From Lactobacillus sp. UCMA15818 (lineage in GTDB: Bacteria; Bacillota; Bacilli; Lactobacillales; Lactobacillaceae): a stretch of DNA of 64,000 nt. Made by a program: the position numbers and the translations under genes. The DNA lies in the NCBI RefSeq assembly GCF_030400225.1, contig NZ_VJYB01000002.1, positions 62,001 through 126,000 on the forward strand, written 5' to 3'. Below the pieces are notes generated by a model. The model searched no databases. It worked only from the letters and a program-made list of their open reading frames with translations, and was not told the origin of the DNA. Below are positions 23,612 through 64,000 of the stretch, in pieces (the stretch's first letter is position 1; each line of letters starts with the position of its first letter).

Positions 23612-24760
23612 ATGGAGCTTATATTTTTTTGGATGCTGCTTATTCTAAATCCAGTTGTTTTGTTTGGCCTAATGGTAATTTTTTTTGGTTATTTGAGAAG
23701 AATAAAAAATGAACGGAAATATTTTAGAACAGCAATAAATAATGATTTTTTTGAGGGACGCTATTATATAAAAAATGCGTTCAAATTAGGATTATTAAGT
23801 TCGAGCATTACTATCTTATTAGGACTGGAACTTACAAAACAGTGGATTTTTATTTATATGGGAGTTGCAGTTATTGGTATTGTTTTGTCATTATACATAG
23901 ATTTGAATACTGTTTTGTTATTACTTTTTACTGGAAGTACAATAGGAATATCTAGTTTACAACTGCTTAGTGACAAATTAACTATCCCGGCAAGTTTGAA
24001 ATTTTTGGATGGGATTAAACCAGGTGTTGTTTTTGCAATTTTATCAATTTTTTATTTGACGAAATTAATAATGTTAAGAAGCTACAAGCAGGGCTTTTTT
24101 CAGCCAAAAGTATATAACGGAAAGCGTGGCAGAAGATTAATTAGGTATTCTTTGAAAGACCAAACAGTTCTGCCATTGATTGTTCTTGTGCCTGGGGACC
24201 TTATACACAGTGTTATTTCATTTTGGCCTGTCTTTAACGTTGGTGGGCAATCATTTACATTGTTTGTTTTACCGTTATGGATTTCTTGGACACTAAGACT
24301 TTGGCGTAACAAGGTTGAGTCAGAGTTACAAGGGGCGAAAGTTAACACGCGAGAGGAACTTGTTATCGCTGTAGTTGGAACGGTATTAGGGTTCCTGGTC
24401 CCGGTTACTGGAATCTTTGTATTTGTCATATTACTTTTGGTAGTTACCTTGCGCTTTGCGCAAAGGTATGCAAGGATGAAGAGAAGGGGCAAATGGTATG
24501 CTGAAACTCACGATGGAATTCGAGTCGTTGCAATTCAACCTGAAACCCCTGCTGCAAAGATGAATCTGGAAATCGGGGATGTAATCATTACGTGTAATGG
24601 AATTTCTGTCACAACAGAGTCAGAGTTTTATGAGGCGTTGCAAAAGAATTCAGCGTATTGCAAATTAAAAGTTAGAACATATGAAGGTCAATTGAAATTA
24701 ACCGAGAGTGCAATTTTTGCGAATTCACCACACGAAATCGGGGTAATATTGTTTCATTAA
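23612..24760 (+). CDS. Polytopic membrane protein with C-terminal PDZ domain, MinJ-like
   Basis: 382 residues: about eight membrane helices (residues 5-290), then a cytoplasmic PDZ domain (about 298-370: VVAIQPETPAAKMNLEIGDVIITCNG). Architecture, size and position after ftsEX match Bacillus MinJ (YvjD), which bridges DivIVA and MinD to place the division septum and also affects swarming. There is no protease domain. The ATG at 23612 is chosen because GGGAGG lies at proper spacing; the ATG at 23603 abuts it. It precedes phoP by 18 nt, probably in one transcript. The MinJ assignment is by architecture and synteny. Confidence 0.65.
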   Translation: MELIFFWMLLILNPVVLFGLMVIFFGYLRRIKNERKYFRTAINNDFFEGRYYIKNAFKLGLLSSSITILLGLELTKQWIFIYMGVAVIGIVLSLYIDLNTVLLLLFTGSTIGISSLQLLSDKLTIPASLKFLDGIKPGVVFAILSIFYLTKLIMLRSYKQGFFQPKVYNGKRGRRLIRYSLKDQTVLPLIVLVPGDLIHSVISFWPVFNVGGQSFTLFVLPLWISWTLRLWRNKVESELQGAKVNTREELVIAVVGTVLGFLVPVTGIFVFVILLLVVTLRFAQRYARMKRRGKWYAETHDGIRVVAIQPETPAAKMNLEIGDVIITCNGISVTTESEFYEALQKNSAYCKLKVRTYEGQLKLTESAIFANSPHEIGVILFH

Positions 24761-39005: not shown

Positions 39006-41840
39006 TTGGCACAAAATAAGATTGTTATTCATGGTGCAAGAGCTCACAATCTGAAGAATATTGATGTGACAATTCCTAAGGACAAGCTGGTTGTTATCAC
39101 AGGATTATCTGGTTCAGGAAAAAGTTCGCTTGCGTTTGATACATTATATGCTGAGGGACAAAGGCGCTATGTTGAGAGCTTGTCAGCATATGCCCGCCAA
39201 TTTTTAGGACAAATGGATAAACCTGATGTCGACTCGATTGATGGTTTATCGCCAGCCATTTCAATTGATCAGAAAACAACTTCAAAAAATCCGCGTTCAA
39301 CAGTAGGAACTGTCACAGAAATTAACGATTATCTTCGTCTTTTATGGGCACGTGTAGGGACACCATATTGTCCAAATGATGGTCATGAGATTACAAGCCA
39401 ATCTCCTGAACAGATGGTAGATAAAATACTATCACTACCGGAAAGAACGAAAGTACAGATTTTGTCGCCAATTATTCGTGAAAAAAAGGGACAGCACAAA
39501 AAAATTTTTGAGAAGGTCAAGCGAGATGGATTCGTAAGGGTTCGTGTTGATGGTGAAATTCTAGATATTGGGGATAAGCTGGACCTAGATAAAAACAAGA
39601 AGCATACAATTGAAGTAGTTGTAGATCGTGTGGTTGTTAAGGAAGGAATCAGGTCACGTCTATTTGATTCTTTTGAAGCGGCGTTGCGTCTATCAGATGG
39701 GTATGCCAGCGCTGATACTGGCGATGATAAACTATTACAGTTTTCTGAAAACTTTGCATGCCCGTATTGTGGCTTCACGATTGGTGAATTAGAGCCTAGA
39801 CTATTCTCCTTTAATGCTCCCTTTGGCGCCTGCCCAGAATGTGATGGCTTGGGAATGAAGCTTGAGGTAGATCTTGATTTAATAATTCCAGATAGTTCAA
39901 AGACGCTCAAGGAAGGTGCAGTTGAGCCCTGGAATCCGATAAGTTCACAATATTATCCAATGATGCTAGAACAAATGTGTCAGGAATTTAATATTGAGAT
40001 GAACGTACCATTTGATAAATTGCCTAAAAAAGATCAGGAAATTGTATTATATGGTGCAGGCGAGAAAACATTCCATTTCCACTATGAAAATGATTTCGGA
40101 GGAGTTAGGGATGTTGATGCTAAGTTCGAAGGCGTCATTCCAAATATTGAAAGGCGTTATCACGAAACAAACAGTGATTTTACTAGGGATGTAATGCGTA
40201 AATACATGACAAGTCTGACATGTCAGACTTGTCAAGGATATCGTTTAAATCGTAAAGCACTTGCGGTGCAGATTGACGGGAAACATATTGGGCAGGTATC
40301 CGAAGATAATATCGAAGCTGCGTTAGATTTTTTCAAAAATTTGAAATTTAATGCTCAAGATACTGCAATTGCACAGCCGATTTTAAAAGAAATTAGAGAT
40401 CGCTTGACATTCTTGATTAATGTTGGCCTCGCATACCTGACACTTAGTCGTTCAGCGCGAACTCTCTCTGGAGGTGAGGCGCAGCGAATCAGATTGGCAA
40501 CACAGATTGGTTCGAATTTATCAGGTGTTTTATATATTCTTGATGAACCTTCAATCGGATTGCATCAAAGAGATAATGATCGCTTGATAGATTCGTTGAA
40601 GAAAATGAGAGACTTGGGTAATACCTTGATAGTTGTAGAACATGATGAAGATACAATGAGAGCTGCTGATTACTTGATTGATATCGGACCGGGTGCGGGC
40701 AGTAATGGTGGAGAAGTAATGGCAGCAGGGACACCAAAACAAGTTGCGCGGACTGCTAAATCATTGACTGGTCAATATTTGTCAGGTAAGAAGCATATTC
40801 CAGTGCCCAAAGAAAGGCGTACGGGTAATGGACAAAGAATTACTATTGAAGGTGCTAGTGAAAATAATTTGAAAAATATTGACGTTGATTTTCCATTGGG
40901 TACTTTTATTGCAGTTACAGGTGTCTCTGGTTCTGGTAAGTCGACATTAGTTAATATGATTTTAAAACGAGCTTTAGCGCAGAAATTAAATAATAATTCT
41001 GAAAAGCCAGGTAAGTACAAGGCAATTGTTGGAACTGAAGCACTTGAGAAAGTTATTAATATTGATCAAAGCCCAATAGGGAGAACTCCTCGCAGTAATC
41101 CTGCTACTTATACGAGTGTTTTTGATAATGTACGTGATCTCTTTGCGCAGACAAATGCTGCAAAAGTTCACGGCTATAGTAAAGGACGTTTTAGTTTTAA
41201 TGTCAAAGGCGGTCGGTGTGAAGCTTGCAAGGGTGATGGCATCATCAAAATTGAGATGAATTTCTTACCTGACGTGTACGTACCATGCGAAGTGTGTCAC
41301 GGAGCACGCTATAATTCTGAAACGCTTGCGATTGAATATAAGGGGAAAAACATTGCACAAATATTGAACATGACGGTTGAGGAGGCACTTGAATTTTTTA
41401 GTGCGATTCCCAAAATTAAAAGAAAATTGCAGACAATTGTCGATGTGGGTCTAGGATATGTCCAATTAGGACAGCCAGCGACAACCTTATCTGGAGGTGA
41501 AGCACAAAGAATGAAGCTTGCTTCGGAGCTGCACCGCAAGTCAGATGGCAAGACTTTCTATATTTTGGATGAACCAACTACAGGGCTACATACCGATGAT
41601 ATTAAGAACTTGTTACGTGTTTTAGTGCGTCTAGTTGATTCAGGAAATACTGTTTTGGTAATTGAGCATAATTTAGATGTCATAAAAACAGCAGATTATT
41701 TAATAGATCTCGGACCAGAAGGTGGTGCGGGCGGTGGTACAGTCATTGGTACCGGAACACCAGAACACCTTGCAGAGAATCCGGCAAGTTACACAGGTAA
41801 ATATCTTAAAATGGTATTGAATAGATATAAGGATCAATAG
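39006..41840 (+). CDS. uvrA: Excinuclease ABC subunit A
   Basis: 944-residue damage-recognition ATPase. It has two ABC modules: Walker [10 protein letters not shown] (about 32) and GVSGSGKST (about 640), ABC signatures [12 protein letters not shown] and [12 protein letters not shown], and Walker [12 protein letters not shown] and [11 protein letters not shown]. Zinc-binding cysteine pairs occur in CPYCGF...CPECDG (about 252-280) and CEACKGDG...CEVCHG (about 738-766). TTG start after AAGAGGAAG. Confidence 0.97.
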
Positions 41841-59226: not shown

Positions 59227-59342
59227 GTTGATTTATGGTGTATTTTACAAGCTATCTCTTAATTAGGATAAAGATTGGGTAGGAAAAAAGATTTGCTAAA
59301 CAACATAAATTAATTCTTTGAAAATTAAAATATAAATAATTG

Positions 59343-59371
59343 TTGACCTGTTGATTAAAATAGTCTAAGAT
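59343..59371 (+). promoter_or_regulatory. leuA leader promoter
   Basis: TTGACC (59343-59348), 17-nt spacer, TAAGAT (59366-59371), 32 nt before the leader-peptide ATG. Confidence 0.65.
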
Positions 59372-59391
59372 GTAACTAATAAATGAAAGGA

Positions 59392-59549
59392 GAGTCCTTT
59401 GTATGTATATTCAATCAAATAGTTATGTAATTGAATTTGCCCTACTACTATGATGGAGGACTCCGACAATATGTCGAGTCCTATTTGTAGTTAGAATGGG
59501 GCTTGAGCAGTAAATGAACACCCTATTCTTAATGAATAGGGCGTTTTTT
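59392..59549 (+). promoter_or_regulatory. Leucine attenuator: competing hairpins and terminator before leuA
   Basis: GAGTCCT occurs twice (59392-59398 and 59476-59482), and both copies can pair with AGGACTC (59457-59463), which starts just after the leader stop. The second pairing is extended by GACA/TGTC. The terminator is CCCTATTC-TTAAT-GAATAGGG (59521-59541) with CGTTTTTT. Its 5' arm can instead pair with AGAATGGGG (59493-59501), a possible antiterminator. Alternative pairings are visible; the order of events is inferred. No T-box motif is present. Confidence 0.75.
59403..59453 (+). CDS. Leucine leader peptide (attenuator control peptide)
   Basis: 16-codon ORF, MYIQSNSYVIEFALLL, preceded by AAAGGAG at 10-nt spacing. 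The last three codons before the stop are CTA-CTA-CTA, three consecutive leucine codons of a less-used type. This is the design of amino-acid leader peptides: ribosome stalling at scarce Leu-tRNA changes RNA folding downstream. Too short for normal gene finding. Lactococcus lactis uses a comparable leader for its leu-ilv operon. Confidence 0.8.
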   Translation: MYIQSNSYVIEFALLL

Positions 59550-59588
59550 ATTTACAAATTTTCTTAATAAATTAGGAGGTTATAAGAT

Positions 59589-60755
59589 ATGAAAAAAATA
59601 CAATTTTTTGATACAACTTTACGTGATGGTGAACAGACAATCGGTGTCAATTTTTCCATTGAGGACAAAATAAGCATAGCTAAACAATTAGTTAGCTGGG
59701 GTGTAGATGTAATTGAAGCAGGATTTCCTGTTGCTTCAAAGAATGATTTCAAATCGGTTAGAAAAATTGGGCAAGAAATAACTAATTGTAAGGTAACTGG
59801 TCTTGCACGTTGTGTAAAAAAGGATATTGATGCTGTGATTGATGCCTTAGGTGACACTCCGAATGGTCAGATTCATGTATTTATTGCCACAAGTCCAATT
59901 CATCGTGAAGCAAAGTTACATATGACTAAAGAGGAAGTAATTGAAACCATCAATGATTGCGTTAGTTATGCTCATCAAAAATTTACACATGTTGAATTTT
60001 CTCCGGAAGATGCAACTAGAACTGAATGGGATTTTTTGGTCAGAACAATTCGTACCGCAATTTTTGCGGGAGCTGATGTGATTAATATTCCTGATACTAC
60101 TGGGTACACTAATCCTGAAGAAATTGGTGAATTATTCGATTATTTAAAGGATAATATTCCTGAATTTGATGAAGTAACATTCTCAGTGCATTGCCATAAT
60201 GATTTGGGAATGGCCACAGCAAATGCATTGTCTGCGATTCGTCATGGTGCAACTAGGATAGAAGGAACAGTCAATGGTATAGGAGAACGTGCTGGAAATA
60301 CTGCACTTGAAGAGGTTGCTACTATGCTGATGGTGCGTGGTGATTTCTATCAGGCAGCGACAAATATTTGTTTAAATAAAACTTTTGAAACTGCTAAAAT
60401 GGTTAGTCAAAAATCTAATATGCAAATACCTAATAATAAACCTATTACAGGAGCAAACGCATTTTCCCATGAATCTGGAATTCATCAAGATGGTTTTTTG
60501 AAGAATCATGCAACATATGAGATTTTAACTCCACAAAGTGTAGGAGTTGCCCATTCATCAATACCTCTGGGAAAATTATCTGGTTCGCATGCTGTGACTG
60601 TTAAGTTAGAGGAAATGGGGTATGAGATAGATAAAAACACTACAAAGGATATTTTTATCAAGTTTAAATCAATTGCTGATAATCAATCAATTGTTTCTGA
60701 TGATGATTTAGTGCAAATGATGAACGAAATGCAGTCAGTTACGAATAAAAAATGA
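59589..60755 (+). CDS. leuA: 2-isopropylmalate synthase-like protein without regulatory domain
   Basis: 388 residues. The HMGL-like TIM barrel starts with FFDTTLRDGEQTIGVNFS, has metal ligands HCHNDLGMA (about 202-210) and signature GTVNGIGERAGNTALEE, and continues into linker subdomains (ITGANAFSHESGIHQDG, PLGKLSGSHAV). It ends at 388, so the roughly 120-residue LeuA dimer domain that binds leucine for feedback inhibition is absent. Homocitrate-type activity is less likely from the N-terminal motif but not excluded. Good ribosome binding site TTAGGAGG. No leuB, leuC or leuD in the window. Confidence 0.82.
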   Translation: MKKIQFFDTTLRDGEQTIGVNFSIEDKISIAKQLVSWGVDVIEAGFPVASKNDFKSVRKIGQEITNCKVTGLARCVKKDIDAVIDALGDTPNGQIHVFIATSPIHREAKLHMTKEEVIETINDCVSYAHQKFTHVEFSPEDATRTEWDFLVRTIRTAIFAGADVINIPDTTGYTNPEEIGELFDYLKDNIPEFDEVTFSVHCHNDLGMATANALSAIRHGATRIEGTVNGIGERAGNTALEEVATMLMVRGDFYQAATNICLNKTFETAKMVSQKSNMQIPNNKPITGANAFSHESGIHQDGFLKNHATYEILTPQSVGVAHSSIPLGKLSGSHAVTVKLEEMGYEIDKNTTKDIFIKFKSIADNQSIVSDDDLVQMMNEMQSVTNKK

Positions 60756-63095: not shown

Positions 63096-63149
63096 CATTT
63101 GTGGTAGACTTTTGAATATCCCTAATCAAAAGAGAGGTAACCACAAATG
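63096..63149 (+). promoter_or_regulatory. Hairpin that would hide the transposase ribosome binding site
   Basis: CATTTGTGGT-AGAC-TTTTGA (63096-63115) is largely complementary to TCAAAAGAGAGGTAACCACAAATG (63126-63149). The second arm contains the ribosome binding site AGAGAGGT and the ATG. RNA entering from outside the element would fold this hairpin. Confidence 0.55.
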
Positions 63150-64000
63150 ACCTATAAACATCTTACCACACAAGAATTAACCTTCATATATAATTTTTGG
63201 AAACAAGGTATTAAAGCTTACCAAGCTGCTAAAGCTCTTAAACGTTCTAGTGAAACTGTTTATCGTGTTTACCGTTTCTTAGATACCGGACATTCAATTA
63301 GCCAATTCCAAGAAAACTACCGAATTAACAAGGCTCACTGTGGTCGAAAAGTAATTACATTACCAGAAGATGAAGTCAAATATATTGAGCAGAAAGTCTC
63401 ATTAGGTTGGACCCCTGATACAATTATTGGTCGCGCAAAGATTCATATCAGTTGTAGTATGAGAACTTTATACCGCTTTTTTCAAAGGGGAGTTTTCAAT
63501 AAGAAATTATTGCCAATGAAAGGTAAGCGGCATCCAAATGGTTATGTTGAACGACGTGGTAAAGCTGGCCGACTTGGCAGAAGCATTTACCAACGATATC
63601 AGGATTACCCTCATTTTCAACATGAATTTGGTCACTTAGAAGCAGACACAGTCCAAGGCAAAGCTCACCAAGGTGCAGTTATGACTTTAGTTGAGCGTCT
63701 TTCCAAAGTTGAAATTATTTTGAACATTCAACAAAAATCAGCTGAATGTGTTAACAAACACCTTGATCAATGGTTGTCTCAACAGCCAAAACACCTTTTC
63801 AAATCAATTACTTTTGATAATGGTAAAGAATTCACTGGCTGGAAAGAGATTGCGAATAAACATGATATTAGTGCTTACTTTGCCGAAGTTGGAGCTCCTA
63901 ACCAACGTGGCTTAAATGAAAACAACAACGGATTGATTAGACGAGATGGTCTCAAAAAGGACATGGATTTTCGTAGCTTACCAAATACTGTGGTTCAACA
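63147..64000 (+). CDS. IS30-family transposase (3' end outside the window)
   Basis: 284 codons visible, open to the edge. N-terminal HTH (QAAKALKRSSETVYRVYRFL), then the DDE domain: D167 in HLEADTVQGKAHQGA, D224 in ITFDNGKEFTGW and E258 in GLNENNNGLIRRDG. Spacing D-56-D-33-E is that of the IS30 family. No frameshift or stop is seen, so it is probably functional. About 30 to 60 residues are missing. Ribosome binding site AGAGAGG. Confidence 0.92.
   Translation, partial: MTYKHLTTQELTFIYNFWKQGIKAYQAAKALKRSSETVYRVYRFLDTGHSISQFQENYRINKAHCGRKVITLPEDEVKYIEQKVSLGWTPDTIIGRAKIHISCSMRTLYRFFQRGVFNKKLLPMKGKRHPNGYVERRGKAGRLGRSIYQRYQDYPHFQHEFGHLEADTVQGKAHQGAVMTLVERLSKVEIILNIQQKSAECVNKHLDQWLSQQPKHLFKSITFDNGKEFTGWKEIANKHDISAYFAEVGAPNQRGLNENNNGLIRRDGLKKDMDFRSLPNTVVQ

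Follow-up and report, generated by a model that had tools for sequence, protein, structure and literature searches.

A Probable Leucine-Codon Attenuator Upstream of leuA in Lactobacillus sp. UCMA15818 and a Candidate Family of Leaders with Differing Control Codons

The leader region of leuA

The window, by which we mean the whole 64,000-nucleotide stretch of DNA that was analysed, carries a gene that we identify by its sequence as leuA. It is preceded by a short open reading frame (ORF) that has its own Shine-Dalgarno (SD) sequence and clustered codons for the amino acid whose synthesis would be regulated, followed by a terminator and an antiterminator that are mutually exclusive (Table 1). 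The first-pass annotation had drawn attention to three CTA codons directly before a stop codon, in a frame with its own ribosome binding site, and all of these are in place, the 3′ end of the ORF reading GCC CTA CTA CTA TGA. The GCC at 59439, just before the CTA codons, is a further possible pairing partner of strand C. Within the leader region, AGGACTC lies at 59457-59463, two copies of GAGTCCT at 59392-59398 and 59476-59482, and AGAATGGGG at 59493-59501. The folding energy of the leader has a z score of -5.7 and was equalled by none of 200 shuffled sequences. Transcription would start from the upstream candidate promoter, for which its position alone argues, sites resembling TTGACC-TAAGAT numbering 4 against 3.7 expected.

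Table 1. Features of the leuA leader region, in window coordinates; promoter and pairing roles are predicted.
Feature	Position	Strand	Remarks
Candidate promoter of leader and leuA, TTGACC-17-TAAGAT	59343..59371	+	9/12 consensus matches; putative
Shine-Dalgarno sequence of leader ORF, AAAGGAG	59386..59392	+	
GAGTCCT beside the Shine-Dalgarno sequence	59392..59398	+	Able to pair with arm A; not family-wide
Leader ORF, 16 codons, MYIQSNSYVIEFALLL	59403..59453	+	Ends in FALLL and stop; TGA at 59451
Control codons CTA CTA CTA	59442..59450	+	Codon starts 59442, 59445, 59448
Arm A, GGACTCCGAC	59458..59467	+	7 nt past last Leu codon
Arm B, GTCGAGTCCTATTT	59473..59486	+	Partner of A or of C
Strand C, AGAATGGGGCTTGA	59493..59506	+	With B, termination; with D, antitermination
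Arm D, ACCCTATTC	59520..59528	+	Terminator 5′ side or antiterminator 3′ side
Arm E, GAATAGGGC (59534-59542), and T-run (59544-59549)	59534..59549	+	Terminator 3′ part
leuA, 2-isopropylmalate synthase	59589..60755	+	388 aa; identity by sequence

Conservation in the genus and family

The first-pass annotation had named lack of conservation of the leader peptide in related genomes as one finding that would refute it. We detected leuA in 12 of 14 genomes of the genus, and a leader with three Leu codons is present at 12 of these 12 loci, its C-terminal ALLL conserved and its N-terminus variable. The leuC gene was found in 13 of the 14 genomes. In the genome under study leuBCD stands apart from leuA, as an operon 3′ of trpB that has a leader copy of its own (MNNSMCNSFTIEFALLL, then stop). 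Six more genomes with both genes also have a separate, leader-bearing leuBCD, as does G002, in which no leuA was detected; at L008-L012, leuB lies immediately 3′ of leuA. It is likely that the operon was split and that each part retained the sensor. A pattern search of the genome allowing up to 3 mismatches returned the leuA copy only, missing the leuBCD leader, which was seen on inspecting the region upstream of leuB. Behind leuD lies an MFS transporter (L113:9421-10770, minus strand), which elsewhere (L132, L163 and L165) stands directly behind a Leu leader of its own and is perhaps a carrier of leucine, a keto acid or a related compound.

A first covariance model, built from 20 leaders of the genus, was run on 397 genomes of the family (taken as Lactobacillaceae) and had matches in 110 of them at E ≤ 0.01. 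We inspected 63 of the family matches together with L014 and L015, omitting L122-L128 as repeats of genus leaders; the inspected matches are nearly all stronger than about 5e-5, with a few stronger ones omitted, and the weak tail is doubtful. By BLAST, 45 of the 65 inspected loci precede leuA or leuB. Among the other 20 are three before MFS transporters like that behind leuD (confirmed by Pfam for L132) and two whose codons are Ile/Val and which precede a different solute-binding protein, confirmed as SBP_bac_3 at L167. Thirteen of the 65 leaders are longer, with an ORF that continues into arm A; 12 of the 13 contain [DN]LALLL, and most precede, as judged by eye, a branched-chain binding protein (confirmed for L166). 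This longer type, which reads ..LALLLK.KDP.., comprises L166, L169, L171, L175, L176, L179-L181 and L184-L188. At L170:3440-3559 (minus strand) the leader reads VVVVLLLS, and 623 nt separate it from the nearest called gene behind it, which is methylisocitrate-lyase-like; at L160 no gene was called behind the leader.

Co-variation of alternative helices

Pairing segments were cut from 80 leaders (78 distinct), and native pairings were compared with swapped ones in 2000 permutations. All four helices of the proposed switch pair better natively, with z scores of -4.6 for A:B, -8.0 for B:C, -6.3 for C:D and -17.1 for D:E, each reached by 0 of 2000 permutations, though the 78 leaders include the 20 used for the first model, and the model that collected them contains the A:B, D:E and Leu:C helices. 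Such tests do not remove phylogeny, on which the control pairings alone bear: A:C gave a z score of -0.3 (779/2000) and B:D one of -1.7 (79/2000). Pairing of the Leu codons with C is weaker (8/2000). An extra anti-antiterminator hairpin, CCTATT:AATGGGG, found no support (154/2000). In the leaders of the order and class described below, 60 of 62 being usable, all four helices again gave 0/2000, with controls at +0.3 for A:C and +2.2 for B:D, the latter natively worse (1976/2000).

Alignment A5 was not fitted to B:C or C:D, and in it these helices are paired in 91.0% and 83.8% of cells, values that both fall when the helix is slid. Double-changed cells number 16 for B:C, against 4.4 in shuffled alignments, and 25 for C:D, against 7.4. 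The B:C pairs that carry double changes are three, against 2.1 in shuffles, and 150 of 500 shuffles reach three; the outermost C:D pair is broken in 28 of 46. For A:B and D:E together, to both of which the alignment leans, 95.4% of cells are paired and 105 are double-changed, and for Leu:C, to which it was fitted too, 98.9% are paired with one double change only. The Leu triplet itself is retained through 15 codon combinations in 75 of 78 leaders. A comparison with relatives, proposed in the first-pass annotation, found the Leu codons conserved and compensatory changes in A:B, B:C, C:D and D:E. The suggestion that the 5′ arm of the terminator can be captured by another strand likewise found support: the C:D helix co-varies and would compete with D:E.

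Ribosome position and the distance to arm A

The last control Leu codon is separated from arm A by 5-8 nt in 75 of 78 leaders, although the distance of arm A from the stop codon spans +5 to -31. The footprint of a ribosome reaches 12 nt beyond the first base of the A-site codon, as measured by toeprinting, and with that footprint a ribosome at the second CTA of the window would end exactly ahead of GGACTC.

We folded the RNA as transcribed to arm D with the footprint masked and read out the probability of C:D pairing; equilibrium folding of a truncated RNA is a mere proxy for the co-transcriptional choice. In 61 leu-class leaders, the mean C:D probability was 0.91, 0.84 and 0.36 with the first, second and third Leu codon in the A-site, making the third a weak stall position in the prediction, and with the next codon (usually stop) there it was 0.25, with C:B at 0.73. 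Shuffling the segment that runs from the Leu codons to C changed the mean switch size from 0.66 to -0.03; the size exceeded 0.5 in 42 of the 61 native leaders versus 3 of 183 shuffled ones. Folding with a stalled ribosome, a check proposed in the first-pass annotation, predicts read-through at the first two Leu codons and mostly termination beyond the third.

For the window leader, C:D was 1.00, 1.00 and 0.72 at the three Leu codons, and the next-codon state is predicted to be only mildly terminating (C:D 0.41 vs C:B 0.59). In computation, then, the position of the ribosome sets the fold, more weakly for the window past the Leu codons and poorly for the 13 leaders of the longer, liv type, whose C:D is 0.41 at the first Leu codon. 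The poor switching of the liv type counts against the model, and so does the window RNA from the Leu codons onward when no ribosome is placed on it: at this length it favours C:D (0.79), with no clear super-attenuation, and in this it differs from the start-codon and ribosome-binding-site mutants of rli60 as they appear in excerpts of PMC5864092.

Leaders across the order and class

A second model (R2), made from 46 lactobacillar leaders with A:B and D:E as its only structure, was used at E ≤ 0.001. It matched in 137 of 395 genomes of the order (46 of 81 genera) and in 23 of 398 genomes of the class; 13 of the 23 lie outside the order, 12 of these in one genus. One locus from that genus, L232, is a likely false match with no ORF and no gene.

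Among 61 order and class loci inspected, 35 precede ilvD, as recognised by N-terminal sequence (L194 confirmed). Identified by Pfam or NCBIfam are downstream genes for ilvB (3/61), leuA (3/61) and Peripla_BP_6-type proteins (6/61); Opp components (4/61), PTS_EIIC_2 (4/61) and SBF-type transporters (2/61) were each assigned partly by eye, CstA and a class IV aminotransferase follow one leader each, and two loci have no called gene. In 56 of 58 leaders (58 of 63 being placeable) the run of Leu, Ile or Val codons ends 2-9 nt before arm A. The codons match the gene that follows, with LLL before leuA, mixtures of Leu, Val and Ile before ilvD and ilvB, and LLLLL or IIIII before importers.

Several genomes carry more than one such leader. 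Genome G522 has three (L192, L244 and L245), with VILII before ilvD, TVLLL before leuA and IVIVL before ilvB; the frame of the leuA leader, L245, was assigned by eye, and a script did not locate where it starts. In G400 two importers are preceded by leaders with LLLLL and IIIII (L220 and L238, from a single genome).

We lean towards the view that these are members of one homologous attenuator family, spanning the Lactobacillales and staphylococci, in which specificity has been reprogrammed by swapping the codons just before arm A.

Enzyme and regulatory setting

The domain content of LeuA was examined for the window, L014, L015, L241, L245 and L249. The window protein has the HMGL-like and HCS_D2 domains and lacks the allosteric LeuA_dimer domain, which is absent also from Loigolactobacillus bifermentans (L014) and present in Atopococcus (L015) and at the order loci L241, L245 and L249 (500-518 aa). 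At 33 of 36 lactobacillar leader loci with a called leuA N-terminal motif, the leuA ORF encodes 384-400 aa; at L134, L159 and L172 it has 112-115 aa, as if broken or partial, behind an intact-looking leader.

CodY was detected in none of the 14 genus genomes, with Bacillus subtilis and Lactococcus lactis controls positive. A candidate CodY box at 59312-59326 (2 mismatches) was set aside: the window holds four sites as good where 1.9 would be expected, and no CodY was found in the genus genomes. The genome has leuA, leuB, leuC and leuD, and a search of it for ilvC, which is above cut-off in 8 of the 14 genus genomes, gave nothing above cut-off and a 19-bit match only (G000 C43:131318-131596). 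Without ilvC the pathway might be supplied from valine, and a sensor that reads Leu alone would be in keeping with that. At the far end of the window (63147-64000) an IS30-family-like transposase runs off the edge; similar copies occur on lactobacillar plasmids.

Proposed mechanism and alternatives

The leuA leader is very probably a leucine-responsive, ribosome-mediated transcription attenuator, as judged from modelled folds and comparative data. The conserved Leu triplet, the co-varying alternative helices and the folding with a masked ribosome all support control of leuA through leucine codons. What computation shows is that the elements of the leader are present and conserved, that four helices co-vary and that the distance from codons to arm A keeps within a narrow range; it also predicts a switch. 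A ribosome translating the leader ORF would arrive at the three Leu codons and, if Leu-tRNA were scarce, would wait there with the first or second of them in its A-site. Its leading edge would stop short of arm A, so that A:B could fold and C would stay free to pair with D; no terminator would form, and leuA would be transcribed. With ample leucine the ribosome would proceed to the stop codon, covering A and releasing B, and pairing of B with C would leave D for E, whose terminator helix would end transcription. After release of the ribosome, the Leu-codon stretch (GCCCTA) may also capture C. Both the stalling of ribosomes at these codons and the response to leucine are what we infer from this arrangement.

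The first-pass annotation had seen the switch in a competition of GAGTCCT copies for AGGACTC. The sites are there; a contest between two copies is not how the leaders appear to work, since the anti-antiterminator is mainly the pairing of arm B with AGAATGGGGCTTGA and the downstream GAGTCCT, in arm B, is the generally conserved partner of arm A. Sequestration of the SD sequence by the upstream GAGTCCT as the main switch is very unlikely. The pairing is predicted to be close to 1.0 in the six strongest leaders listed, for RNA ending just past A, and native pairings stand out in permutation (11/2000), but it exceeds 0.5 in 22 of 62 leaders only, is near zero in the six weakest listed, and averages 0.17 once B to D have been transcribed; on the counts of leaders above 0.5 and on that mean we rejected it as a general switch. 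The upstream GAGTCCT over the SD sequence seems to have been added in some members of the leader family.

That the RNA serves as a riboswitch for a metabolite or as a protein-binding element, the short ORF being incidental, is very improbable. Its core (a hairpin, CCTATTT and GAATGGGGC) is strongly conserved apart from the codons, as such an element would be; yet the identity of the codons follows the downstream gene, their distance to arm A is narrow although the position of the stop varies, and no riboswitch family reaches its gathering score in the window. Any stall at the same site would yield read-through, and the ORF might for that reason sense translation in general, like a drug-sensing leader, rather than leucine. 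We give this scant credence, as it is the Leu triplet that is conserved while the N-terminus varies, and the downstream genes serve mostly branched-chain amino acid (BCAA) synthesis and amino-acid transport. Control of leuA by a T-box or another tRNA-binding leader is barely credible. The genome is rich in T-boxes, with 33 matches at E ≤ 0.001 and 12 above cut-off, but none of the 33 lies at leuA or leuBCD, and neither the window nor L113 has an RF00230 match at gathering. On contig C12 the nearest T-box starts at 194910 and the leuA leader is at 121439; on contig C46 the nearest starts at 40561 and the leuBCD leader is at 24017.

Implications

If leucine-codon attenuation is correct, the leader RNA would be the only leucine sensor found here for leucine synthesis, with no CodY detected and a LeuA without feedback domain, perhaps a natural example of transcriptional sensing that outlasts both the allosteric domain of LeuA and CodY. 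A T-box-rich genome would use leader peptides for leucine. The scaffold would unite separate reports (rli60 and the Staphylococcus aureus ilvD leader) with many further leaders under a geometric rule, in which control codons stand a few nucleotides ahead of arm A, and a single genome may hold several copies, each with codons fitted to its own gene. The codons could then reveal the substrates of transporters (PTS_EIIC_2, CstA, SBF-type, Opp and MFS), and BCAA-related roles are predicted for those of unknown substrate.

Comparison with known systems

In the leu and trp leaders of Escherichia coli, a stalled ribosome chooses between antiterminator and terminator. The window leader has that logic in common with them; unlike theirs, its control codons adjoin the stop codon and the hairpin. 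The leu/phe leader of Lactococcus lactis encodes a Leu-rich peptide ahead of BCAA genes, as the window leader does. The first-pass annotation had taken this L. lactis leader as the known comparison, but its family, RF01743 (gathering score 70), matches neither the window nor any of 345 genomes of the order, with a named L. lactis control positive, and rli60 is the closer relative. A leu/phe leader is listed for L. lactis in PMC2864571.

No Rfam family reaches gathering at the window leader. At a permissive threshold Yfr10, PyrR, rli60 and others appear there, each below its own gathering score; rli60 (RF02414) reaches 21.6 bits where gathering requires 60, and we therefore do not assign the window leader to that family. 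RF02414 is above gathering in 4 of 20 scanned loci, namely L234 and L235 from one genus, which we take for Listeria, and L217 and L226 from another, taken for Staphylococcus; the 16 without it include L131, L178 and L191. Outside rli60, 15 of 16 tested leaders lack an Rfam family at the leader. The lactobacillar-only model R2 links the loci that match RF02414 with those that do not.

Translation-coupled attenuation had been called rare in Firmicutes in the first-pass annotation, a view too strong beside the experimental tests of the S. aureus ilvD leader (Kaiser et al. 2018, PMC5794164) and of Listeria rli60, whose mechanism is supported by mutants (PMC5864092), as far as excerpts of both papers go. 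One review already regards ribosome-mediated attenuation as a common means of controlling BCAA synthesis in Gram-positives (PMC6123439), and leader peptides of Firmicutes were already reported for hisS-type genes in part of PMC2965389. In the open-access literature we found no paper uniting a wider, codon-programmable family. The window thus adds one more leader to a type already established by experiment, and it does so within a broader family for which a quantitative distance rule is proposed.

The published S. aureus leader peptide has 26 aa with three Ile and then two Leu, and in its antiterminator GAAUGG is bound by UUGUUU from the poly-U tail, according to PMC5794164. Locus L226 agrees in its 26 aa and in its three Ile then two Leu, and the GAAUGG motif is shared as well; the window leader differs in that its strand C pairs with the 5′ arm of the terminator and its codons are Leu-only. 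L234, an RF02414 match of 181.3 bits, encodes a 13-aa leader, MKTTKSVITILLL, and 13 aa is the length given for the rli60 peptide in the text seen of PMC5864092. The window leader shares with rli60 its control codons, A:B hairpin, C strand and terminator, and differs in having Leu-only codons before leuA, whereas rli60 has Ile, Val and Leu codons before ilvD. By analogy with rli60 and the S. aureus ilvD leader, the window leader should function like both.
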